From: Herminiimonas sp. KBW02
GTDB taxonomy: Bacteria > Pseudomonadota > Gammaproteobacteria > Burkholderiales > Burkholderiaceae_D
DNA length: 64,000 bases
Direction of reading: 5' to 3'
Assembly (NCBI RefSeq): GCF_003852535.1
Contig: NZ_QAJP01000004.1
Coordinates: 854,719-918,718, forward strand
In this document: piece by piece, positions 1,807-62,116 of the stretch
Layout of the letters: each line of letters starts with the position of its first letter
Position numbering within the stretch: the stretch's first letter is position 1
Position numbers and translations under genes: made by a program
Notes under the pieces: generated by a model
Database searches by the model: none
What the model saw: the letters and a program-made list of their open reading frames with translations, nothing else
Told to the model about the DNA's origin: nothing

Positions 1807-3399
1807 TCAGGCGGCTAACGGTGCGCCGTGATCATCCAGTTTGAAGCTGCGCACGGTAAGAGCCAATTGCTCCGCCTGGTTTTGCAGGGAGGCAGCGGCA
1901 GCGGCTGCCTGTTCCACCAGCGCTGCATTTTGCTGTGTGACTTCGTCCATTTGGCCGATGGCCTGATTGACTTGCTCTATGCCTGCACTTTGTTCCTGGC
2001 TGGCAGCAGTAATTTCCGCCATGATGTCAGTGACCCGTTTCACACTGGTAACAATCTCATCCATCGTGGTGCCGGCTTCTGCTACCAGTTTTTCACCCGT
2101 ATCAACGCGCGCGGCCGAGTCGCCTATTAATGCCTTGATTTCTTTGGCGGCAGATGCCGAGCGTTGCGCCAGGTTGCGTACTTCTGCCGCGACTACCGCA
2201 AAGCCGCGACCTTGCTCACCGGCGCGGGCTGCTTCAACCGCTGCATTCAGGGCCAGGATATTGGTTTGGAAGGCAATGCCATCAATTACGCTGATGATAT
2301 CGCCTATCCGTTTGGATGATTCATTGATGGACTCCATCGTGACCACCACCTGGGAGACGACTGCGCCACCTTTGAGGGCGATGTCCGAAGCACTGGCGGC
2401 CAATTGATTGGCCTGTCTGGCATTGTCTGCATTTTGCTTGACGGTAGAGGTGATCTCTTCCATCGACGACGCCGTTTCTTCAAGGGCGCTTGCCTGTTCC
2501 TCAGTGCGTGAAGACAGATCCAGGTTACCTGCCGCGATCTGATTCGATCCGGTCGCGATTGCATCCGTGCCGTGGCGGACCTTGGTCACGATGCGCATCA
2601 GATTTTCATTCATATCCTTCAGTGCATGCAACAACTGACCGGTTTCATCCCTGGAGCTGACGTCGATTTTGGCGGTGAGGTCACCCGACGCTACCGTGCG
2701 CGCGATATCGATGGCATTGCTTAATGGTCGCGTCACGCTGGTGATGATCCAATAGGTGAGGCCGGTGCCCACTATGGTGAGTATGGTCAGGGCCAATAAG
2801 ATGGTTTTAGTCGCCAGCTCATTTTGCTCTTGTGCGGCTAGTCGATTGTGTTCACGGATATTGGCTGATTGCTTGCTGACATAACTAACGATTTGATCGA
2901 TTTTTTGTGTAGGTTCGCGATCCATGCCTTTCACCAATGCATCGATCTCGGCTACGCCGCCCGTTGCGATGTGATTGTTTTGTCCGAGGGCAGCCAGATA
3001 ATTTTTCTCCAGTTGCAGCAGCGAGGCCTGAGCCTCATTCAGTAGCGGAGAGCTCAGCTGCAGCTTGCTGAAGATCGCACGCAGTTCATTTAAGCCGTCA
3101 TTGGTTGCTTTGCCTTGTTTGATGAAGGCGGCTTTGTACCTGGCGAAGTCAGTAGTGTTGTGACCGCGCAGCAGGATATTTTTCCATTCCTGAATCTGGA
3201 TTTTGAAATCGACTTGTGCCTTGCGCGCCGTGTCTACCGTGCGTTCCACATCGGATGCTTGTTCAAGCGTTAACATCATGAGCGCATTGGATTGCTTGAT
3301 GGTGCTCCATCCTGTCAAACCGAGGGCGATCGAACCCAGAATTAAAAATGTGCTGAGCAGAATCAGACGACTGGAAATTTTGACATTTTGTATGCGCAT
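1807..3399 (-). CDS. Methyl-accepting chemotaxis protein
   Basis: A 530-residue transmembrane chemoreceptor. A membrane helix lies at about 12-32, then a periplasmic four-helix-type sensor region of about 160 residues, a second membrane helix at about 193-216 ([15 protein letters not shown]), a HAMP domain to about 270 and a long cytoplasmic signalling domain. The hairpin tip is intact ([20 protein letters not shown]), which is where CheA and CheW dock. The C-terminus ends in DDHGAPLAA, with no CheR-tethering pentapeptide. The ligand cannot be predicted. The start ATG has an AAGG-type ribosome site in front of it. The gene is monocistronic and divergent from the YjfB gene. A second receptor of the same architecture lies at 33.5 kb. 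Confidence 0.95.
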
Positions 3400-33495: not shown

Positions 33496-35145
33496 ATGCA
33501 ATCCGTAAGAAATCTAAATATTGGCAAGAAACTGGGCCTCGGGTTCGGCGCGGTAACCGTACTCATGCTCTTGCTGGCCGCCTTCGCGATGGTGCGCATA
33601 TCTGGTGTGACAGATGCGTTCAATAAGCAGCATCAGGTGCAATTGCAAAAACTGGCGCCACTTTACGTCGCGCGCGAAGCGTTGGCGCAAACCGGTCTGG
33701 CGGCGCGCAATGCTTTGATCTTTAGCGATGAAGCGAGCGCGCAGAAGGAACTGGCCATACTTGATGAGCAAAAGGAAATCTATCTTGCCGCGTTGGCAGA
33801 GCTTGCGCCTCGTTTCGGCAGCGATGCCAATTTCAAGAAGGTGGAAACCGGCTTGCTCGCGATGGCAGAAGAGTTAAAGCGACCGCGCCGTTATCGCAAT
33901 GAGAAAGACATGGCCGCTTACGGCAAATTTCTGGTCGAGGAGTGCAGCCCATTACGGCGTCAGATCGTGACGGACATCGATGTGGTGCTTAATCAGGTGC
34001 TGGCAGAAAACGCCCGGGCAACGCAGAAAACAGAAGGCATCCTCGAGGAATCCATGAAGTTCGTGCTAGGTCTGGCTGCAATCGCACTGATGGTTAGCGT
34101 CGCGATTGCTGTCATGATCACGCGCGGCTTGTTGCGCCAGCTTGGTGGCGAGCCGACATATGCCGTCACGATTGCCGGAAAAATAGCGCAAGGTGATCTG
34201 GCGACCGACATCGTTACCCGTCCTGAAGACAGATCCAGTCTGCTGTATGCACTCAAGGCCATGCGCGACAACCTCGCTTCTATCGTTCGCGAAGTGCGCA
34301 TCGGTACGGATACGATGGCAGCATCGTCGTCAGATATCGCGCTTGGCAACTCTGATTTGTCGTCGCGTACCGAGCAGCAGGCGTTTGCACTTGAAAAAAC
34401 AAATGCAGAAATGTTGAAGCTGACCGAGACCGTCCAGTTGAATGCTGACAATGCACAGCAAGCCAGTCAGCTTGCTGTGAGTGCGTCACAAATCGCTACC
34501 CACGGCGGCACGCTTGTAGAGCAAGTGATCGCCACGATGGAGTCGATAGACGCTTCGTCACGCAAGATAGTAGAGATTATTGCCGTCATCGATGGCATTG
34601 CTTTCCAGACGAATATCCTGGCGTTGAATGCAGCCGTTGAAGCGGCAAGGGCGGGTGAGCAGGGGCGTGGGTTTGCGGTGGTAGCCGCCGAGGTGCGTAG
34701 TCTTTCGCAACGCTCAGCGAGTGCGGCAAGAGAAATCAAGACGCTTATCAATGATTCCGTGGGCCGGATCGAAGCAGGTAGCGTGCTCGTGAGCGAGGCC
34801 GGTGCAACCATGGAAAAGGTGGTTGCCAGCGTTCGTCGCGTGACCGACGTGGTGGCGGAGATCAGCATCGCCGGACAAGAGCAAAGCGCAGGCATCAGCG
34901 CAGTCAGCAGGGCGGTGACAGAAATGGATCAAGGCACGCAACAGAACGCTGCTTTAGTTGAGCAAGCCTCGGCAGCTGCAGACTCGCTGCGTGATCAGGC
35001 GGATAAACTTTCCCGTCTGGTGCAAACTTTTGTGCTGGCTGACGCATCTGCATACGAAACGATGGTCATGCACAATTCTGCTATACCTGCGCTTGCATCG
35101 AACGACGGTTCAAGCTCGGGGGTGAAGCGCTTGAGCCATGGCTGA
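33496..35145 (+). CDS. Methyl-accepting chemotaxis protein
   Basis: A 549-residue receptor starting [17 protein letters not shown]. The first membrane helix is at about 14-34, followed by a periplasmic helical bundle of about 150 residues, a second helix near 186-208 ([20 protein letters not shown]), a HAMP domain and the signalling domain. The hairpin tip is [20 protein letters not shown]. The last 60 residues are variable, with no CheR-tethering pentapeptide. Overall it is a paralogue of the receptor at 1.8 kb with the same type of sensor. A TTG start further upstream is unlikely because the internal ATG gives the usual N-terminus. It stands alone upstream of the adhesin island. Confidence 0.94.
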
Positions 35146-47724: not shown

Positions 47725-49179
47725 TCATTCCGGTTTGATCAAGGCCCGGTTTTTCCCGACAAACAGGATGTGATCAGCGGCTATTCCTTGTTGTGCCAGC
47801 TCATTACGATCCACCACCACCAATTCATTGTGTGTGTTCTTGTTGAGTACGGCGTCTGGTTCGTAGTGCAAGGCATTGCGGGCATAGTAGTCGGATGAAT
47901 ACTCGGGACGTACCTTGTACGCGAGCTGCATGCCCGGTACGGCGGCACGGTGGAAGGCCTGTATCAAATCACGGTCGGAATTGGCGCTGGCTTTGCTGAC
48001 GACATACGGGCCGCACATGACGGCTAGCAGTGCCAACAGCGCGATAGCAATACCGGTGCGGCTTTGAGTTTTGGTTGAGGTGTTTTCCAGCCAACGCGCC
48101 ACCAGCACGCTGAAAGGCAAGGCAGCGGTCAGACCATAAGTCCAGATGATGTTGCGGCTGAAGGTGAAGAACAGCAGCGGCGCCAGTGTCGCACACCAGA
48201 GGAAGCGTTCGATAGCTAATGATTGCTTGGGCCGCTTACTGAAAAAGCGCAGCAATTCACTGACGAAGACCCCCAGCCACGGCAACATGCCTATGCTCCA
48301 GAAGATCCAGATCGCACCCATAGGTTGTTGCTGCGCGATGCCGTAGTGATCACCTTTCCAGCCGGGAACCAGGAAGCGCGAGAAGTGCTCGCCGATGATG
48401 AAATAATTCAGGAAGCCCGGGTTGGTGTACTCGGCTGCGATGTACCACGGCATGAAGATACCCAGCGCCAGCGCCACGCCACCCCAACTGAATACATGGC
48501 GGAACATTTGCCACGGACGGCGTTCCACTAATGCATACGCGATCAGCGGCAAACCTATCAATGCCCAGGTCGCCAGGCCCTTGCACAAGGCACCGAGTCC
48601 AATCATGCTCCAGAACGCGAGCCGCCATTTGAAGGCGTCATCACCAATACTATTCAGTGTGCGCCAGGCGAAGTAGAGCGCAGCAACGATGATCACCATT
48701 TGCAGTGCATCAGTCATGACTGCACCGGCACACAGGAAAAATAGCGGCGAAGCAGCCAGTACCGGTGCGACCAGCCAGCTGCGACGCAGCTTCATCTCTC
48801 GCGCAAAACCCATCGCAACGATGACAGCGAGCAAGGATGCCAGCAATGCCGGCAGGCGCGCGGCGAACTCATTGATGCCAAATATTTCCATCGAGATGGC
48901 ACTGGCCCAGGTCGAGAGTGGTGGCTTGGCAAAGAAGGGCGTCTGTGGATCGATATGTGGCATTAGCCAGTAGCCATTGCTGACGGCTTGCCGTGCGATT
49001 TCACCGTAACGTGCTTCGGTCGTATCCGCCAGCGGCAGCAGCGCCATCAAGCCTATGCGGTAAGCCAGCAGCAGTAGTGCCGCGGCCAGCAAGTACCAGA
49101 GATAGGCGGGGACGTGGCGGGCGCGGGATGGATTTACTGCTGCAAGCGAAAACGGTTCAGGAAATGTTTGGGGATTCAT
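47725..49179 (-). CDS. ArnT-like membrane glycosyltransferase (PMT family)
   Basis: A 484-residue protein with about twelve membrane helices. The catalytic-loop sequence LADTTEARYGEIARQAVSNG then YWLMPHIDPQTPFFAKPPLS matches ArnT/PMT enzymes, where an acidic pair after the first helix acts with a lipid-phosphate sugar donor. The start is MNPQTFPEPFSL, which overlaps the sensor kinase gene by 23 bases; the longer frame is unlikely. The gene is the last of a four-gene operon with a PAP2 phosphatase and an OmpR-type two-component system, a setting that suggests sugar addition to lipid A. Whether the sugar is aminoarabinose is not shown; no arnABCD genes are in the window. Confidence 0.88.
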   Translation of the reverse strand: MNPQTFPEPFSLAAVNPSRARHVPAYLWYLLAAALLLLAYRIGLMALLPLADTTEARYGEIARQAVSNGYWLMPHIDPQTPFFAKPPLSTWASAISMEIFGINEFAARLPALLASLLAVIVAMGFAREMKLRRSWLVAPVLAASPLFFLCAGAVMTDALQMVIIVAALYFAWRTLNSIGDDAFKWRLAFWSMIGLGALCKGLATWALIGLPLIAYALVERRPWQMFRHVFSWGGVALALGIFMPWYIAAEYTNPGFLNYFIIGEHFSRFLVPGWKGDHYGIAQQQPMGAIWIFWSIGMLPWLGVFVSELLRFFSKRPKQSLAIERFLWCATLAPLLFFTFSRNIIWTYGLTAALPFSVLVARWLENTSTKTQSRTGIAIALLALLAVMCGPYVVSKASANSDRDLIQAFHRAAVPGMQLAYKVRPEYSSDYYARNALHYEPDAVLNKNTHNELVVVDRNELAQQGIAADHILFVGKNRALIKPE

Positions 49180-50551
49180 GCTGTTCTCTGAGGGGAAAGG
49201 CGGTGCGTGTCGCGCTGCGTGAGCGTGGGTCGGCGACCATCTGTTTGATGCGTAGGGTGGCGAGCAAGCCCTGGCCATCATCGGGATTGCCCAGTTCTAT
49301 GGTGGCGTCGTGCTGGGCGGCGATGGTTCTTGCGATGAAGAGGCCGAGGCCGCTACCGGAAACGCCGCTGCCTTCGCGTCGATAGAAGCGATCAAAGACA
49401 CGTTCCCGGTCTGCGGCTGGTATGCCGGGGCCGTTATCGGAGACTTGCAGAAGTGCATAACCGTCAGCGCTGGATACACTGACATCAACGCGGCCATATG
49501 CCGGGGTATAGCGCACCGCATTGTCAACCAGGTTGCCGAGCAGGATGCGCAAGTTCTCTACATCACCATAGGCGTAGATAGCGTGGTCGCTGCCGTCGGC
49601 TGCTGCGATCACACCGAGGTCCACGTGCTTGTGTTCGGCCTGCGGTGCAAGGTCGGAAACCACGCCTGCAACCAGTAGTTGCAAGTTCACTTTCTGGTAA
49701 CGTCGATCCGGCAAGCGTCCTTCATGCCGTGCCAGTGTCAACAGTTGTTGCACCAGGTGGCTAGCGCGGTTCAGGCGCTGATGCAATTTTCCCAGACCCG
49801 GCTGTAGTTCGGGATCCTGATTGTCGCGCTCGACGAGTTGCAGTTGCAGCTTGAGTGCAGCCAGCGGTGTACGCAATTCATGTGCGGCATCCGAGACGAA
49901 AGCACGCTGCGTCGTGCGCGCTTGCTCCAGGCGTGCCAGCAAGCCATTCAGGGCCAGCAGCATGGGCTGTAGTTCCGGCGGATAAACGCCATCGCTGATG
50001 CTCTCCAGTGTTTCCGGTGTACGCTGGTTGATGGAGGCTGCCAGGCGTCCTATCGGTTGCAGTGCGCGCCCGACGACGATCCAGATTAGCAGACCCAATA
50101 AGGGAATCAGTACGACGAATGGAATCAGCGAACGCAAAGCCATGGATGCGGCCATGCGATTGCGGATGGCGGTGGGTTGCGATACCTGAATGAAGCGGCC
50201 TTGGTCGAGCTGGCTATAGACGCGCCAGTTTTGCTGGTTCAGCCTGGTTTTGCTGAAGCCTATGGTGTTGACCCGGCGCAGCTGTATGGTTGGTGCCGAT
50301 GTAAACAGTAGTTGATTATCCTTGTACCAGATCTGCAGCATGACTTCGTCTTCCGAGTCATCGCCCACCTGCAGCGTATGGCTGACTGATAGTTCGGTAG
50401 GGAAGGCGGTGGCAATCTGTTGCAACTGATAGTCGAACATTTCATTCATCTCATGCCGTACTTGTACATAGGTGGCAAAGCCGGCAAGCAAGGTGGCGGA
50501 GATCATTCCGCCAAACAGATACATGAGTAATTTGCGGCGTATGCTGATCAT
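49157..50551 (-). CDS. Sensor histidine kinase (QseC/PmrB type)
   Basis: A 464-residue kinase. A first membrane helix at about 10-30, a periplasmic sensor of about 130 residues (with HEMNEMFDYQLQQIATAFPTE, read as HEMNEMFDYQ then LQQIATAFPTE), a second membrane helix near 150-170, HAMP, the H-box VSDAAHELRTPLAALKLQLQ, the N-box NLVDNAVRYTPAYGR and the G-box VSDNGPGIPAADRERVFDRF. The first 4 bases overlap the end of the response regulator gene. Related kinases (PmrB, QseC) respond to cations, acid or amines. The C-terminus runs 23 bases into the glycosyltransferase gene. Confidence 0.94.
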   Translation of the reverse strand: MISIRRKLLMYLFGGMISATLLAGFATYVQVRHEMNEMFDYQLQQIATAFPTELSVSHTLQVGDDSEDEVMLQIWYKDNQLLFTSAPTIQLRRVNTIGFSKTRLNQQNWRVYSQLDQGRFIQVSQPTAIRNRMAASMALRSLIPFVVLIPLLGLLIWIVVGRALQPIGRLAASINQRTPETLESISDGVYPPELQPMLLALNGLLARLEQARTTQRAFVSDAAHELRTPLAALKLQLQLVERDNQDPELQPGLGKLHQRLNRASHLVQQLLTLARHEGRLPDRRYQKVNLQLLVAGVVSDLAPQAEHKHVDLGVIAAADGSDHAIYAYGDVENLRILLGNLVDNAVRYTPAYGRVDVSVSSADGYALLQVSDNGPGIPAADRERVFDRFYRREGSGVSGSGLGLFIARTIAAQHDATIELGNPDDGQGLLATLRIKQMVADPRSRSATRTAFPLREQHESPNIS

Positions 50552-51210
50552 GCTGCCAGTCCCAGCTTGTAGCCTATGCCGCGTACGTTCTTGATGAAGT
50601 CCGTACCGAGCTTTTTACGCAAGCCGTGCACATAGACTTCGATCGCATTGCTGCCTATCTCTTCATTCCAGCCATACAAACGTTCTTCCAGTTGTGCGCG
50701 TGACATGACGCGTCCTGGCTGGTCTATCAGTGCCAGCAGCAGTGCAAACTCGCGCGCCGATAAATGCAGCGGTGCGCCTTTGTAGGTAATGGTGCGGGTC
50801 GCCGGATTGATGCTGAGGTCTGCGTAGGTGAGTTCCGGATTGCTGCGTCCGGCACGGCGCCTGATCAGCGCGCGCATGCGGGCGAACAATTCATCGAGGT
50901 CGAATGGTTTGACCAGGTAGTCGTCGGCGCCCGCATCGAGACCCTGTATGCGGACGCTGGTCGCATCGCGTGCCGACAGGATCAATACTGCGGCATCACC
51001 ATGCTTGCGGCGATAATCATCCAGTACGCGGATGCCGTCTTTGCGCGGCAAACCGATATCGAGCAGGATCAGGTCGTAGCTGTGATTGCATAGCGCCAGG
51101 TCGGCTGCATGGCCGTCCTGTACCCAATCGACTGCGTAGTGTTCCTTGCGTAATCCTTCTTCCAGGCTCTCGCCTATCATCGTATCGTCTTCTACCAGTA
51201 GTACCCGCAT
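50548..51210 (-). CDS. OmpR/PhoB-family response regulator
   Basis: A 220-residue regulator starting MRVLLVEDDTMIGESLEEGL, chosen because GGAG lies six bases upstream; an ATG five codons earlier is the alternative. The receiver has the acidic pocket EDD, the phosphorylated Asp in LILLDIGLPRKDGIRV and VKPFDLDELFARM with the Lys. The winged-helix output is at the C-terminus (LSAREFALLLALIDQPGRVM then SRAQLEERLYGWNEEIGSNA and HGLRKKLGTDFIKNVRGIGY). It overlaps its kinase by four bases. It probably activates this operon and other lipid A genes. Confidence 0.95.
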   Translation of the reverse strand: MRVLLVEDDTMIGESLEEGLRKEHYAVDWVQDGHAADLALCNHSYDLILLDIGLPRKDGIRVLDDYRRKHGDAAVLILSARDATSVRIQGLDAGADDYLVKPFDLDELFARMRALIRRRAGRSNPELTYADLSINPATRTITYKGAPLHLSAREFALLLALIDQPGRVMSRAQLEERLYGWNEEIGSNAIEVYVHGLRKKLGTDFIKNVRGIGYKLGLAA

Positions 51211-51291
51211 GCTTGCTCCATTCATGGCAACACCGACCCTGTCGAGGTCAGCCTGAGCGAGCAGGCTAGCGCTACCGACGTTAAGAGCGGG

Positions 51292-51999
51292 TTAAGCATA
51301 CGTCTGCTTGCCTGAAGGAAACTTGCTGGTAGTCGTGAGGTGTAAGCGCTGCTGGTCAAACAGCATGGTGACGCTGGTGACCCAGGCCAGCGAGAGCAAG
51401 AGACTGGCGGCGATGTCGGACGGATAGTGCAAGCCGAGATACATGCGGCATAGTCCAACCAGCAGCACAAATACGCTCGCTGCGGCCATGATGCTGCGCA
51501 GGTGACGCGACGCACGCAGCAGGAACACCAGAGCCAGCGCCAGTGTCATCGCCTGCATCGCATGGCCGCTCGGGAAGCTGAAGGTGGTTTCCGGCGCGGC
51601 CAGCGCCCACAAGGCCGGGCGATGACGTTCGACTACATGTTTGACGACCACATTCAGGATGGCGGAACCGCCGACGGCTACCAGCCAGAACATGACGGCA
51701 TGCCATTGTCGTTTTAGTGCCAGCAGCGCCAGTACCAGCAGGCTGAGTGCGGTAACGGCGGCCGATACTTTCAGAGCAATGCTGTTCAGTAAAGGCGTTG
51801 CATACGCATGCAGTGCGAGCAGGAAGGATGAGTCGAAGGCGTAGCCGACGTCGTTCTTGATATCGATTGCAAGTGCACAGAACAGCAATACCGGCAGGAA
51901 TACGCCGAGCAAGGGCATCACGCTCTTGATGGACAGCTTTTGCGTGCGCGCGGTGGCGACTAGGGATGTGTAAGGTGGCGCTTTATCAGTCTGGTTCAT
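51292..51999 (-). CDS. PAP2-family membrane phosphatase
   Basis: A 235-residue membrane protein with about six helices and the three PAP2 motifs: K-x6-R-P in KHVVERHRP, PSGH in FSFPSGHAMQAMT and S/C-R-x5-H-x3-D in CRMYLGLHYPSD. These residues form the phosphate-transfer site of lipid phosphatases such as undecaprenyl pyrophosphate phosphatase, PgpB and the lipid A phosphotransferase LpxT. The gene is first in the operon with the OmpR-type two-component system and ArnT-like enzyme, so a part in lipid A or undecaprenyl carrier metabolism is the likely role. Confidence 0.9.
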   Translation of the reverse strand: MNQTDKAPPYTSLVATARTQKLSIKSVMPLLGVFLPVLLFCALAIDIKNDVGYAFDSSFLLALHAYATPLLNSIALKVSAAVTALSLLVLALLALKRQWHAVMFWLVAVGGSAILNVVVKHVVERHRPALWALAAPETTFSFPSGHAMQAMTLALALVFLLRASRHLRSIMAAASVFVLLVGLCRMYLGLHYPSDIAASLLLSLAWVTSVTMLFDQQRLHLTTTSKFPSGKQTYA

Positions 52000-57974: not shown

Positions 57975-58340
57975 TCAGGCAACCAGTTTCTTGAGTGTTG
58001 CGAGTACGGCGTCACCTTTGAACGGTTTGACGATCCAGCCCTTGATGCCGGCGGCCTTGCCGCGTTCTTTCATCATCGGCGAATTTTCCGTGGTCAGCAT
58101 GATGATGTTAACGCCGCTGTTGCCGAGTTCACTGCGGATTTTTTCGGCCATGGTCAAGCCATCCATATTCGGCATGTTCACATCTGAAATCACCAGCTTG
58201 ATCGCGCTGTCGCCTTTCAGTTTGGCGAGGCCGTCGCGGCCATCAACGGCGAGAACGACATCAAGGTCATTTTTCTTCAGGAAATCGCCCACTTCGTTAC
58301 GGACGGTGGCGGAATCATCGACTACCAGTATTTGTGCCAT
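57975..58340 (-). CDS. CheY-like single-domain response regulator
   Basis: A 121-residue receiver domain with all active-site residues: acidic VDDS, phosphorylated Asp in LVISDVNMPNMDG, Thr in IIMLTTENSP and Lys in IVKPFKGDAV. There is no output domain, so it signals by binding a partner, as CheY does. It is the last gene of a four-gene operon with a CheX-like phosphatase, a receptor-like protein and a CheA-like membrane kinase, which are its likely phosphatase, sensor and phosphodonor. Confidence 0.93.
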   Translation of the reverse strand: MAQILVVDDSATVRNEVGDFLKKNDLDVVLAVDGRDGLAKLKGDSAIKLVISDVNMPNMDGLTMAEKIRSELGNSGVNIIMLTTENSPMMKERGKAAGIKGWIVKPFKGDAVLATLKKLVA

Positions 58341-58375
58341 GTTTTTCTTCTCAAGTAATTTCTAAAATAATAGGT

Positions 58376-58927
58376 TTAAAACAGTTCAAGCTCGCCGGTA
58401 CTGGCGCTTGCTTCATCTTCTGCAACTTCAAAATCCAGATCGTCATAAGCACTGACGCACAGACTGACGTGGAACAGGGGGCTGCCATCCACATCAACCG
58501 CGAAGTGCTGGATGTGGCTGCAATTGAGCATTTCGATATACGACAGGCAGTGACCGTCGAGGAAGTTCGGCGTGGACATGCCGATGTGCGGGAAGTAGCT
58601 GCCGAGCTCGCGGTTCAGGATGCCGCAGAACAGGTTGCCGTATTCGGCAATGGCGTCCAGAAAGGTTTGCTTGTCGTCGCCGCCTTCACTTGTTTCATGC
58701 ATGCCTGCCATATACGATTTGGTGGGTGCATCCTGTTTGAAATGGATCATCACCATCAGTCGGAACAGATAGGACGAAACAGTCAGCACAACGGCCTCCT
58801 GCTCGACCAGGCCGGCGACGTCGGAAGTGATGCCGATTTCGCTGTGCTCCAGTGCGGACGGAAGACTGGCCTTCAGTGAACGTATGAGTAAGAGGTCGAA
58901 ACCTTCCTGGGCGTTTGGGCTGATCAT
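58376..58927 (-). CDS. CheX-like phosphatase domain protein
   Basis: A 183-residue protein with the CheC/CheX phosphatase motif ExxN in AIAEYGNLFCGILNRELG, where Glu and Asn insert into a CheY active site to remove phosphate. The surrounding alternation of beta strands (VVLTVSSYLFRLMVMIHF, HIQHFAVDVDGSPLFHVS) fits the CheX fold. The C-terminus is acidic (LDFEVAEDEASASTGELELF). It lies five bases after the receptor-like gene and 35 bases before the CheY gene, and so probably dephosphorylates that CheY. CheX is otherwise rare in Betaproteobacteria chemotaxis operons, where CheZ is usual. Confidence 0.75.
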   Translation of the reverse strand: MISPNAQEGFDLLLIRSLKASLPSALEHSEIGITSDVAGLVEQEAVVLTVSSYLFRLMVMIHFKQDAPTKSYMAGMHETSEGGDDKQTFLDAIAEYGNLFCGILNRELGSYFPHIGMSTPNFLDGHCLSYIEMLNCSHIQHFAVDVDGSPLFHVSLCVSAYDDLDFEVAEDEASASTGELELF

Positions 58928-58932
58928 GATGC

Positions 58933-59652
58933 TTAGACGGTGAGTGCTTCTTTGGTTTTATCGTTGACCAGATTCAGGCCGATGACCGCACCGACGATCA
59001 TCTTGCCGCCTGCCTGCAAGTCCTGGAAGGTGGTGGTCGTGATCAGGTCGCTTTCATGCAGATTGCTGCGATAGCTCTTCGACAGTTTTTCTGCACGTTG
59101 TGCCAGTGAACGCACTTCGGAGGCGACCACAGCGAAGCCGCGGCCATGTTCGCCTGCGCGAGCTGCTTCTATCGATGCATTCAGCGCGACGATGATGACT
59201 TGATTGACGATGAGGGCGAACTCGTCATTCTTCACACGCATCTCGCGGTTGTGCTTGATCAGCACGCCCATGTCGTCGTGCCAGCGTTCAAAGGTTTTGA
59301 TCAGTCCCATCAGACGCGCGATGGTATCGGCGGCACGTTCGCAGTTCTCCACTGCGGCTGCATTGCTGTCGGCATTGCGTTCGGACAGGCTCTGTATCAG
59401 TTGCTCATGCTCTTCCTGCAATTGCGACAGCTGATCCTGATTCATGAGTTTTTCCTGTTCCAGCAGGATTGCATGTTGTTCCATCTTTTGCTGCATGTCG
59501 CGCATGACGTTTTGCAAGTCCTGCTCCAGTGTCTGCGCTTGTGCGATGTCGACCATGCCGGTCAGACGTTGTTGCAGCTTGCGGACGCGTAGTTGCTGCA
59601 ACAGGCCGCACAGCAGGAATCCGACCACGAAGAAAATAATAGAGTTAAGCAT
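58933..59652 (-). CDS. Short membrane-anchored chemoreceptor-like protein
   Basis: A 239-residue protein. One N-terminal membrane helix ([20 protein letters not shown]) is followed by a coiled coil of about 60 residues ([20 protein letters not shown] then [19 protein letters not shown]) and a helical hairpin whose tip is [20 protein letters not shown] then [18 protein letters not shown], the CheA/CheW-binding tip of chemoreceptors. There is no periplasmic domain, no HAMP and a shortened second hairpin helix. It is coded directly after a CheA-like kinase and before CheX and CheY genes. It may scaffold or modulate that kinase instead of sensing a ligand itself. The internal Met is chosen as start since the longer frame lacks a ribosome site. 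Confidence 0.85.
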
Positions 59653-59695
59653 GATGAATGTGATTCTCTGTTCAGTAGACCATGAATGATGTTGC

Positions 59696-62116
59696 TTACG
59701 CGACGCGGCTTTCGTCCTGTGCATCCTTGCTATTGCTGTGCTCGGACAGCGGTGCTTGCAGCAATTCCTGCAGCAGCGTGTCATCCGCTTCATCCGCCTT
59801 CACGCCAAAGGCGGCAGGCAGGGCAACGATGATGTGGAACTGGCGGAAGTCAGCGCCGACGGCTTCATCGTCAAAGCGGATATCGATGGTGCCGTTTTCG
59901 CGGGTGACGAATGCCAACACTGCATCCATGCCGACGCCACGACCGGAGACTTCGCTGACTTTATCGGCGGTCGAGAAACCTGCCTGCAGGATCAGACGCG
60001 CTGCAGCCAGGTCATCCAGTTGTTCTGGCGCTTCATGCAAACCTTTTTGCTGTGCGATCTGGCGTATCCGTTTCAATGCCAGGCCACGACCATCGTCGCG
60101 CAGGCTGATGTTCAGCATGTGCTCGTCCATGTCCATGTGCAGACTGATCTTGCCGGCTTCGGCTTTGCCTTGTGCGACGCGTACTTCCGTTGTTTCTATG
60201 CCGTGATCCATGGCGTTGCGGATCAAATGCATGAAGACGTCCTTGAGCAGGGCGCTGATCTGGTTATGCACGACATAACCGCCATCCTTGATGTCGATGA
60301 CTGGTGCTTGCTTGCCGAGTTCCTGTGCCAGCGCCGGCATCGAGGCGATCACGCCGGACAGTGTTTCATCCAGACGTTCGGTGCCGAGCAGGCGCAGGGT
60401 GCGACGCACTGCATTGCGCACGGCAACCAGTTCATGCAGGTTGGCGGTGTTGACGTTTTCCAGGCGGTGCAGGCTTTCCTGGATGTGTTTTTTATCGATC
60501 ATCAGATAGCTGTCGACCTTGCCGCCACGGCCCGGGCCTTGACGGCTCAGGCTGACTTCATTGATGCGTGCATAACGTTCGACTGCAGCACGTACGCCAG
60601 CCAGTTCATCCAGCAGCAATTCCTGGTTCCACACACGGCCGCTGTCCGCCTTGCGCAATTCGTCGTAGTGTTGTTCCGCTTCGTGCACGACGTCGGCCAG
60701 ATGCAGCAAGCCATAGGTACGGCCATTGCCCTTGATGGTGTGCATATTGCGGAACAGTTTGGCGATGGTGAATTCGCCGGTGTCAGTGCTGTGACGGATG
60801 ATCAGTTCGTTTTCATCGATGAACTTCAGCGAGCTGACGATGAAGTCATGGAATTTATCCTGGCTGACGGCGAGGATTTCACCGATGATTTCGAGTTCAC
60901 GTTTTTGTTCATTGGCTTCTGCCGCCAGTTGACGCAGTTCCGTCACGTCGCGTACGCACAGCATGAGGCGAACTATCATGTCGTTTTCATCGACGATAGG
61001 CGACCAGCTCAGATCCAGCACCTTGATGCGGCCATCGGCCATGCGTTTTTCAATTTCACCCACCATCAGATGCTGGTTGAATTCAAAGTTCATCAGGTCT
61101 TCACCTATGCAGGCGCCGCCGATTGCTTCCATTTGCGCCAGTGCATCGGCACCGAGATTGGTATCGGAAAACACAAAGTCCATGATGTCGCGACCGACGA
61201 TGTCTTTGGTTTCAAACACGGTTTCCAGATACGCCGAGTATTCGGGATGGATTTTGTTGCCATCGACGATGGTCAGAATGCCTTGCGGAATATTTTGCAG
61301 CATGGTCTGGATGTCGGCCGTTTTCTGGCGCACCAGTGCTGATGCTTCTTCGATTTTCTCCAGCATGCCGTTAAAGGCCTTGATCGAATGACCGACTTCA
61401 TCCATGCGATGGATAGGGACGCGGCGCGTAAAGTCCTGACTGGCGGCGATCTCGCTCATCATTTTTTGCATACGGCTGATCGGGCCGGTAATCTGGCGAT
61501 ACAGCAGGAAGCCGATGGTCGCCAGGAAGATCACGGCGAGGATGGTGACGACTGTAATTGCCGTGGTAGTTGTTGCGAGGTTTTCGTTCAACGCGGCGAT
61601 AGCGACGTCCTTGCTGCGGTTTTTCTCTATGCGCAGGGTGTCGATGATTTGCTCCAGTTCCTGCTGGAACTGGACTACGTTGCCGAACAGCGATGCCTTG
61701 GCGATTTCTTCCTTGCCTGCCAGCTTGAGTTGCATGGTGCTGTCTATCGCATCGAAGTAATTGACCAGGCTTTCTTGCGCCTGCTCGACCAGGCCGCGTT
61801 GTGCCTGGCTGTCGACTTGCGCCAATTGCTTGTCCAGCGCTTTTTCGAGGATGGCTTTCTTGCCGCCCAGTTTTTCATTGTTCTGTATTGCGATCTGCGC
61901 ATCCGGCTCGGACACGATGGCCATCGCCGACAGCTGTACTTCTTTCAGCTGCGCTACCAGATCCGATGAAGCGAGCGTGCTTGGTACCACGCCTTCAGTA
62001 ACAGACTTCACCTCGACAGCGCTGCCGCGTGACTGGAAGACCGCGTAGCCACCGATCAGCGAAATGGCGATGAAGGTCAGTATGACGAGGAGGGTGATGC
62101 GCAGGCGTATGGTCAT
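59696..62116 (-). CDS. Membrane CheA-like histidine kinase (HAMP-PAS-HPt-HATPase)
   Basis: An 806-residue kinase. Order: membrane helix 5-27, a periplasmic four-helix bundle of about 160 residues, second membrane helix ([20 protein letters not shown]), HAMP, a PAS domain (about 265-385), an HPt domain with the phosphorylatable His in [11 protein letters not shown], and a CheA-type ATPase ([30 protein letters not shown]). A P5/CheW-like regulatory domain is absent, as is a recognisable P3 helix pair. So receptor-type sensing and CheA-type kinase are fused in one chain. Read first in the operon with the receptor-like, CheX-like and CheY genes. The internal Met is used because the longer frame has no ribosome site. 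Confidence 0.9.

Follow-up and report, generated by a model that had tools for sequence, protein, structure and literature searches.

A four-gene chemosensory-like set without CheW or P5 in Herminiimonas: CheA-type membrane kinase, receptor-tip hairpin, predicted CheX-type phosphatase and CheY

Introduction

Could a chemosensory-like phosphorelay be built with neither CheW nor the P5 domain of its kinase? The two are regarded as the route of receptor control over the kinase in chemotaxis, and the question is raised by a four-gene operon found in a 64,000-nucleotide stretch of DNA from Herminiimonas sp. KBW02 (contig NZ_QAJP01000004.1, positions 854,719 to 918,718 of the forward strand; this whole stretch is called the window here). 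A first reading, made from the sequence only and without database searches, had recognized in this operon a membrane kinase, a 239-residue receptor-like protein, a CheX-type protein with an ExxN motif and a CheY, and analyses of open reading frames (ORFs), Pfam matches and predicted folds confirmed all four. The set is apparently a genuine, undescribed signalling module. Two observations are new here: a GELELF tail at the C terminus that is common to CheX and to RECX, a second CheX-domain gene, and a receptor-tip hairpin that keeps the chemoreceptor turn and replaces the residue corresponding to F373 (Tsr numbering).

The gene set and its conservation

The participation of the four genes in one module was assessed in 80 loci, which represent the best 80 of 259 kinase relatives in named genomes, so that distant members are under-sampled. 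All four families occur together in 78 of these loci, in several gene orders, and 46 of the 78 also carry RECX. The orders are kinase-hairpin-CheX-RECX-CheY (39 loci), kinase-hairpin-CheX-CheY (31 loci, among them L061, where an additional, weak kinase match lies on the opposite strand), kinase-RECX-CheY-hairpin-CheX (seven loci, in one of which another receiver gene follows the set) and kinase-CheY-hairpin-CheX (one locus). The kinase relatives come from Herbaspirillum, Paraburkholderia, Caballeronia, Pandoraea, Trinickia, Cupriavidus, Formivibrio, Paludibacterium, a Methylophilaceae genome and others, and a chance arrangement in one strain is thus ruled out. The recurrence of the same gene set in many related bacteria argues for a real module rather than a chance grouping.

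The closest named kinase relative, that of Herminiimonas contaminans, is 95% identical, and between this species and the host all four genes show ratios of nonsynonymous to synonymous substitution rates of 0.04-0.07, indicating purifying selection. Pairwise distances of the four proteins over the 78 loci correlate with r of 0.89-0.97, against a shuffle maximum of 0.16, which is normal for any co-inherited genes and speaks for linkage over time, not for contact. The kinase of locus L034 was left out of alignment A2 (15/16 rows), and alignments A5 and A6 were thinned by a 3-mer filter to 52 and 58 of the 78 loci.

The hairpin set is patchy, being rare but spread. The hairpin was detected in 16 of 145 genomes of the family at E <= 2.5e-40, the next matches (8e-16 or worse) being ordinary receptors, and in all 16 carriers it is adjoined by kinase, CheX and CheY, with a short or broken kinase at L034. 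In the order, class and phylum samples no more than the first seven candidates were scored per genome, so that counts are lower bounds: at least 16 of 399 order genomes (14 of 159 genera), at least 5 of 369 class genomes and at least 5 of 398 phylum genomes. Ten genomes of the class sample lie within the E limit, five of them by way of longer receptor-like proteins (frames of 397-563 aa). Among 72,556 plasmid records, seven carry the kinase, and most of these seven are megabase-sized replicons; CheX has no match in phage records. On a plasmid of Ideonella dechloratans (L179, 5941-14039), a kinase, a methyl-accepting chemotaxis protein (MCP) and a hypothetical protein, a candidate CheX by its position, stand in a row; an integrase and a diversity-generating retroelement come next, and RECX and CheY are not annotated there.

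No conserved neighbour family beyond the set was found in the 80 loci (ORFs >=130 aa, with antisense ORFs inside the operon removed). The most recurrent neighbours belong to generic superfamilies, namely ABC ATPases, LysR and SDR (all three by eye) and GGDEF (by Pfam), none of them occurring under more than 6 genus labels or in more than 13 loci.

Table 1. Features of the operon, in window positions
Feature	Position	Strand	Description
Kinase	62116-59696	-	806 aa; transmembrane segment and possible four-helix sensor, second transmembrane segment, HAMP, PAS-like part, HPt with H459, P3-like linker (by eye), CheA-type P4; without P5
Receptor-tip hairpin, MCP-like	59652-58933	-	239 aa; hydrophobic 1-23, predicted helices 36-165 and 167-238, FERWH 121-125, FQDLQ 209-213; without HAMP or sensor
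CheX-type CheY phosphatase (predicted)	58927-58376	-	183 aa; E95xxN98; C-terminal TGELELF
GELELF tail codons and stop, shared with RECX of relatives	58376-58396	-	within the CheX gene
CheY, single-domain response regulator	58340-57975	-	121 aa; D8, D9, D53, K105

A membrane kinase without P5

Pfam places HAMP (residues 204-257), HPt (448-510) and HATPase_c (624-758) on the kinase above the cut-off, and the best sequence match among PDB entries is E. coli CheA (E 9.5e-25). H459 sits in the sequence RNMHTIKG, and the motif FRN[ML]HT[IV]KG recurs in 79 of 80 related kinases. Two hydrophobic segments (~7-27 and ~185-206) bracket the sensor region; together with HAMP and the PAS-like part they give the kinase a sensor part of its own, unlike receptor-driven CheA. 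The domain architecture first read from the sequence stood for HAMP, HPt, the ATPase and the missing P5, whereas the four-helix sensor and PAS appear on the window kinase only below the Pfam cut-off; the 4HB_MCP domain passes it in the relative at L069.

The possibility that a CheW-like domain had been overlooked was followed at the C terminus. No CheW match at E <= 1 was obtained with Pfam in the window kinase or in that of L069. Only 48 residues follow the ATPase domain of the former, and 57-96 residues lie downstream of GRGVGM in 80 of 80 related kinases, in comparison with 138 positions in the CheW model; the stretch beyond P4 is therefore too short for P5 in the window kinase and in all 80 of these relatives. 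As for CheW itself, a search of the whole host genome (3.64 Mb) yielded 12 CheW-domain matches, none of them within the window, the nearest being located ~174 kb from the operon on the same contig, and no CheW travels with the set among the loci whose neighbours were compared (by eye). The proposal of a compact unit with its own, predicted, phosphatase and without P5 or an operon-encoded CheW is supported by these results.

The sensory half of the kinase deserves separate mention. In genomes G151 and G377, similarity to the kinase starts only near the end of HAMP. Genome G383 holds a hairpin-CheX-RECX-CheY set (L175) without an adjacent kinase, and two family kinases on other contigs, L198:3723-7013 (-) and L199:3967-7245 (-), with frames of 1097 and 1093 aa, whose different, GAF-like sensor regions and ends shortly past P4 were both recognized by eye. 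The kinases of these three genomes indicate that the sensor part varies, and that several kinases may share a single downstream set.

CheX, RECX and their shared tail

The window CheX stands at the edge of its Pfam family (E 2.5e-5, 24.7 bits versus a cut-off of 27; the CheX of L069 scores 29.6 bits), was missed by a genome-wide CheX search, and has no sequence match to a solved structure in the PDB at E <= 1. Its predicted fold, modelled with a mean predicted local distance difference test score (pLDDT) of 81.8, matches CheX of T. maritima in Foldseek (E 7.6e-8, 17% identity, TM-scores of 0.60/0.70), and the Borrelia CheX-CheY complex is among the further matches. The E95/N98 pair of the ExxN motif is invariant in 59 of 59 aligned CheX sequences.

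RECX, which does not occur in the window, is a protein of ~320 aa encoded in 47 of the 80 loci, that is, in the 46 mentioned above and in L081; an example is L039:6612-7568 (-). In both RECX proteins scanned, the C-terminal half scores as a CheX domain above the Pfam cut-off, and E223 and N226 of the ExxN motif are invariant in 24 of 24 aligned sequences (alignment A7, made of 22 of 24 thinned RECX plus two more). The N-terminal part gives no Pfam match to Response_reg and has the look of a degenerate receiver by eye only; in six of seven Pandoraea loci it is mostly gone, leaving proteins of 213-224 aa.

These two families, which show a weak overall alignment (hhalign probability 24%, E 8e-4), share a GELELF-type tail at the extreme C terminus, present in 78 of 78 CheX and 47 of 47 RECX. 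All 78 CheX sequences have G at -6, E at -3 and F at -1, and the remaining tail residues are kept in 72-77 of them; all 47 RECX have G at -6, L at -4 and F at -1, position -5 being E or A and position -3 being E or D. Over the 80 loci, 125 of 6,481 ORFs of >=70 aa carry the tail, all of them CheX or RECX, and it is the count among other ORFs, 0 of 6,356, that is informative, since the regular expression was composed after the tails had been seen. Genome-wide in the host, the pattern picks out CheX and one 101-aa frame judged to be spurious. In the CheX model the tail (residues 172-183) has pLDDT values below 50 and is predicted to be disordered. A terminal, flexible peptide common to two predicted phosphatases of one regulator most readily suggests a docking function, and by analogy with the tail of CheZ, which docks on CheY, its probable target is CheY.

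The CheY itself is a Response_reg protein (PF00072, E 3.1e-23), and D8, D9, D53 and K105 are taken by us to be its phosphorylation-site residues. The closest other receiver in the genome is 42% identical and adjoins a chemotaxis cluster on the same contig.

The receptor-tip hairpin

The hairpin matches MCPsignal (PF00015, E 5.7e-18) over profile positions 45-93 of 172, with no Pfam match to a HAMP or sensor domain within its 239 residues. Its best phmmer matches are chemoreceptors, and AlphaFold predicts a long two-helix hairpin (pLDDT 87.5, predicted template modelling score 0.49) for which 16 of 16 Foldseek matches at E <= 0.001 are chemoreceptors, with Tsr at the top. Hydrophobic windows at the N terminus, within residues 1-23, lead to the prediction that the protein is membrane-anchored.

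Turn residues are well kept among 79 hairpins: in Tsr numbering, L380 in 76, N381 in 77, G393 in 77, R394 in 76, F396 in 78 and V399 in 77. The windows compared with ordinary MCPs were anchored without gaps on EAAR, which keeps E385-R388 by construction and which 2 of 17 ordinary receptors do not fit; in an independent gapped alignment of 53 hairpins, the N381, E385 and R388 positions are invariant. At the F373 position, 75 of the 79 hairpins have R, N or K, whereas F is present in 14 of the 15 ordinary host MCPs that were aligned; the T375 position is V in 75 hairpins and the N376 position V, I or L in 77. F373 and its neighbours are presumably trimer-contact residues, and their replacement makes ordinary trimers of dimers unlikely.

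Two further patches characterize the family, FERWH in 70 of 78 hairpins and TFQD[LIVM]Q in 78 of 78. They lie on opposite sides of the helix break at 166, ~43-45 residues away from it, and should, in the model, face each other. The protein ends ~67 residues past the turn, which presumably leaves no room for the second methylation helix. Related frames also include a divergent hairpin that ends in DFELDF, like the CheX tail (L176:7084-7923), and a 397-aa receptor-like frame (L144, genome G482) with FQDRVSQ, a CheZ-like DxxxQ pattern, in its C-terminal region and no Pfam CheZ match.

Proposed mechanism and alternatives

Gene set, domains, active-site residues, conservation and tail are established by the comparisons above. 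The reading to which we incline, with reserve, is that of a self-contained CheA-type phosphorelay in which tail-bearing phosphatases act on CheY and the hairpin is a separate adaptor. For sensing, the membrane kinase would rely on its own N-terminal region together with HAMP and PAS; H459 of the HPt domain would be phosphorylated by the P4-type ATPase, and the phosphate would then pass to D53 of CheY. CheX, joined by RECX in many relatives, would dephosphorylate CheY by means of ExxN, both being recruited by the GELELF-type peptide, which probably docks on CheY in the manner of the CheZ C terminus. The hairpin could be a receptor tip freed from its receptor, a membrane-tethered and probably dimeric adaptor that holds or controls the kinase-CheY complex and, as a separate subunit, covers part of the job of receptor, CheW and P5. 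A broader proposal is more tentative, and we give it somewhat less than even credence: a chemosensory branch without CheW and P5, in which a free-standing membrane tip would be the adaptor for a single sensor kinase or for several, while a common C-terminal peptide would recruit two CheX-type phosphatases to a shared CheY. A conserved system of this kind, with receptor tip, CheA-type ATPase, CheX and CheY retained and both couplers lost, would test how far receptor control of a kinase needs CheW and P5, and would show the reuse of receptor parts as separate subunits; the GELELF-type tail provides a direct, testable hypothesis for how a phosphatase locates its response regulator.

Several observations weigh against a self-contained relay. 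The kinase has no Pfam match to a P3 or dimerisation domain, residues ~545-600 having been called P3-like by eye. The L034 kinase of the family sample measures 564 aa, and in genome G376 the kinase frame (L174:8694-9617) stops after 308 residues, in the PAS region before HPt, next to an intact hairpin and CheX, with RECX and CheY not found in that 17 kb stretch. Locus L081 has kinase, RECX and CheY, hairpin and CheX not being found in its 18.4 kb, and L052 holds the kinase alone, close to a contig end. Lastly, the strong conservation of the turn suggests a partner with the CheW/P5 fold, which is supplied by neither the operon nor the kinase. Upstream of the shortened G376 kinase, a transposase-like frame was seen by eye.

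The conserved turn brings in the most serious alternative, in which the hairpin tip binds CheW, or P5 of a flagellar CheA, encoded elsewhere, and the set is an accessory branch of flagellar chemotaxis and not independent. Turn residues kept in most of the 79 hairpins, and partly invariant in the 53 aligned, speak for it, as does a host genome which, besides its CheW-domain matches, encodes 17 MCP matches other than the hairpin and two CheZ; in addition, FliM is encoded by 16 of 16 carriers versus 121 of 145 family genomes (P = 0.046, not corrected for kinship). This FliM association is weak, however, and the replaced F373, T375 and N376 positions, on the residue roles assumed above, speak against ordinary trimers of dimers, while no CheW accompanies the set in the loci compared by eye and the kinase lacks P5. 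We consider this alternative rather unlikely. The FliM association is too weak to prove a flagellar link and, if anything, leans toward it; the earlier suggestion that the operon possibly controls something other than flagella is not supported.

Improbable, in turn, is the idea that the hairpin itself binds CheY or acts as a CheZ-like phosphatase element, with its FERWH/TFQDIQ patch in contact with CheY. The wide presence of both motifs fits it, and the hairpin stretch TTTTFQDL resembles AQDFQDLTGQ of a host CheZ; against this, hhalign of the hairpin profile with one CheZ gave a probability of 0.2% over 8 columns, that is, no homology, a Gly four residues after the Asp removes the DxxxQ motif of CheZ, and every significant Foldseek match is a chemoreceptor. 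Kinship of hairpin and CheZ, with this non-significant comparison and the missing motif, was set aside. Finally, that an ordinary two-component system lies by chance beside unrelated receptor and CheX genes, as the unrelated surroundings of the operon might suggest, is barely conceivable and refuted as far as sequence can, the four genes staying together in 78 of 80 loci from many genera with changing surroundings.

Genomic setting

The gaps between kinase, hairpin, CheX and CheY measure 43, 5 and 35 bases, and a promoter and terminator scan of the operon was uninformative (3 and 6 sites versus shuffle means of 2.6 and 4.3). The absence of chemotaxis or flagellar genes close by, as first read, holds for ten ORFs around the operon (one scanned in part), which contain none of these families, CheR, CheB and flagellar genes not having been scanned for across the window; one of the ten is an OmpR-type regulator. 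Adjacent genes encode a glutamate symporter, a LysR protein, MFS transporters, a GST and an ArsR-type regulator. In the one annotated record examined, the genes of the set are scattered under the labels 'Hpt domain-containing protein', 'methyl-accepting chemotaxis protein' and 'hypothetical protein'.

Remote from the operon, the window contains two ordinary MCP genes (signalling-domain positions 1936-2406 (-) and 34465-34932 (+)) and, at 47725-51999 (-), a clustered PMT_2-type glycosyltransferase, OmpR-type response regulator and PAP2 phosphatase that may form an envelope-modification cluster. On host contig C11, the second CheZ adjoins a 624-aa CheW-domain frame at ~357-360 kb (L151), separate from chemotaxis genes at 735-742 kb.

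Comparison with known systems

The first reading knew of no described system with this exact make-up, and a search of the literature, with subscription papers mostly outside its reach, likewise found no description of the gene set; nor is it described in the accessible parts of PMC10782961, PMC5789663, PMC3510030, PMC7005262, PMC6606802 and PMC3964821, and terms looked up in PMC6746300 and PMC10653900 gave no match.

With CheA, and thus with class II histidine kinases, the operon kinase has in common an HPt domain with a phosphorylatable His and a CheA-type ATPase, and it differs by its own transmembrane region, HAMP and PAS-like part and by the lack of P5; in the available portion of a survey of CheA architectures, a CheW domain was detected in every CheA of the data set (PMC10782961). 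The split kinase CheA3/CheA4 of R. sphaeroides likewise departs from the standard CheA layout, but both its proteins, as far as the accessible text of PMC3964821 and PMC10782961 goes, have kept P5 and act together with CheW and with a soluble receptor.

The hairpin shares with methyl-accepting chemotaxis proteins such as Tsr the hairpin turn, and departs from them in having neither sensor nor HAMP, in the loss of F373, and in its own patch of FERWH and TFQD[IL]Q. The operon CheX has the fold and ExxN motif of the CheX/CheC phosphatases of T. maritima and B. burgdorferi; it differs in its place at the edge of the Pfam model, in having no PDB sequence match and in its conserved GELELF tail, and relatives add a second CheX-domain gene. 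CheZ also has a short acidic-hydrophobic end (DDLLESLGF and DGLLADLGF in the host genome), but its motif is another, DxxxQ according to the part of PMC3510030 available, and it has no detectable homology to the hairpin.

In comparison with canonical chemosensory systems of the F, Tfp and ACF classes, the operon does not unite a P5-bearing CheA and CheW in one unit. Judged by its sequence, the set would behave like a chemosensory phosphorelay, yet its kinase falls outside CheA for lack of P5, and its hairpin outside the chemoreceptors for lack of sensor, HAMP and F373.

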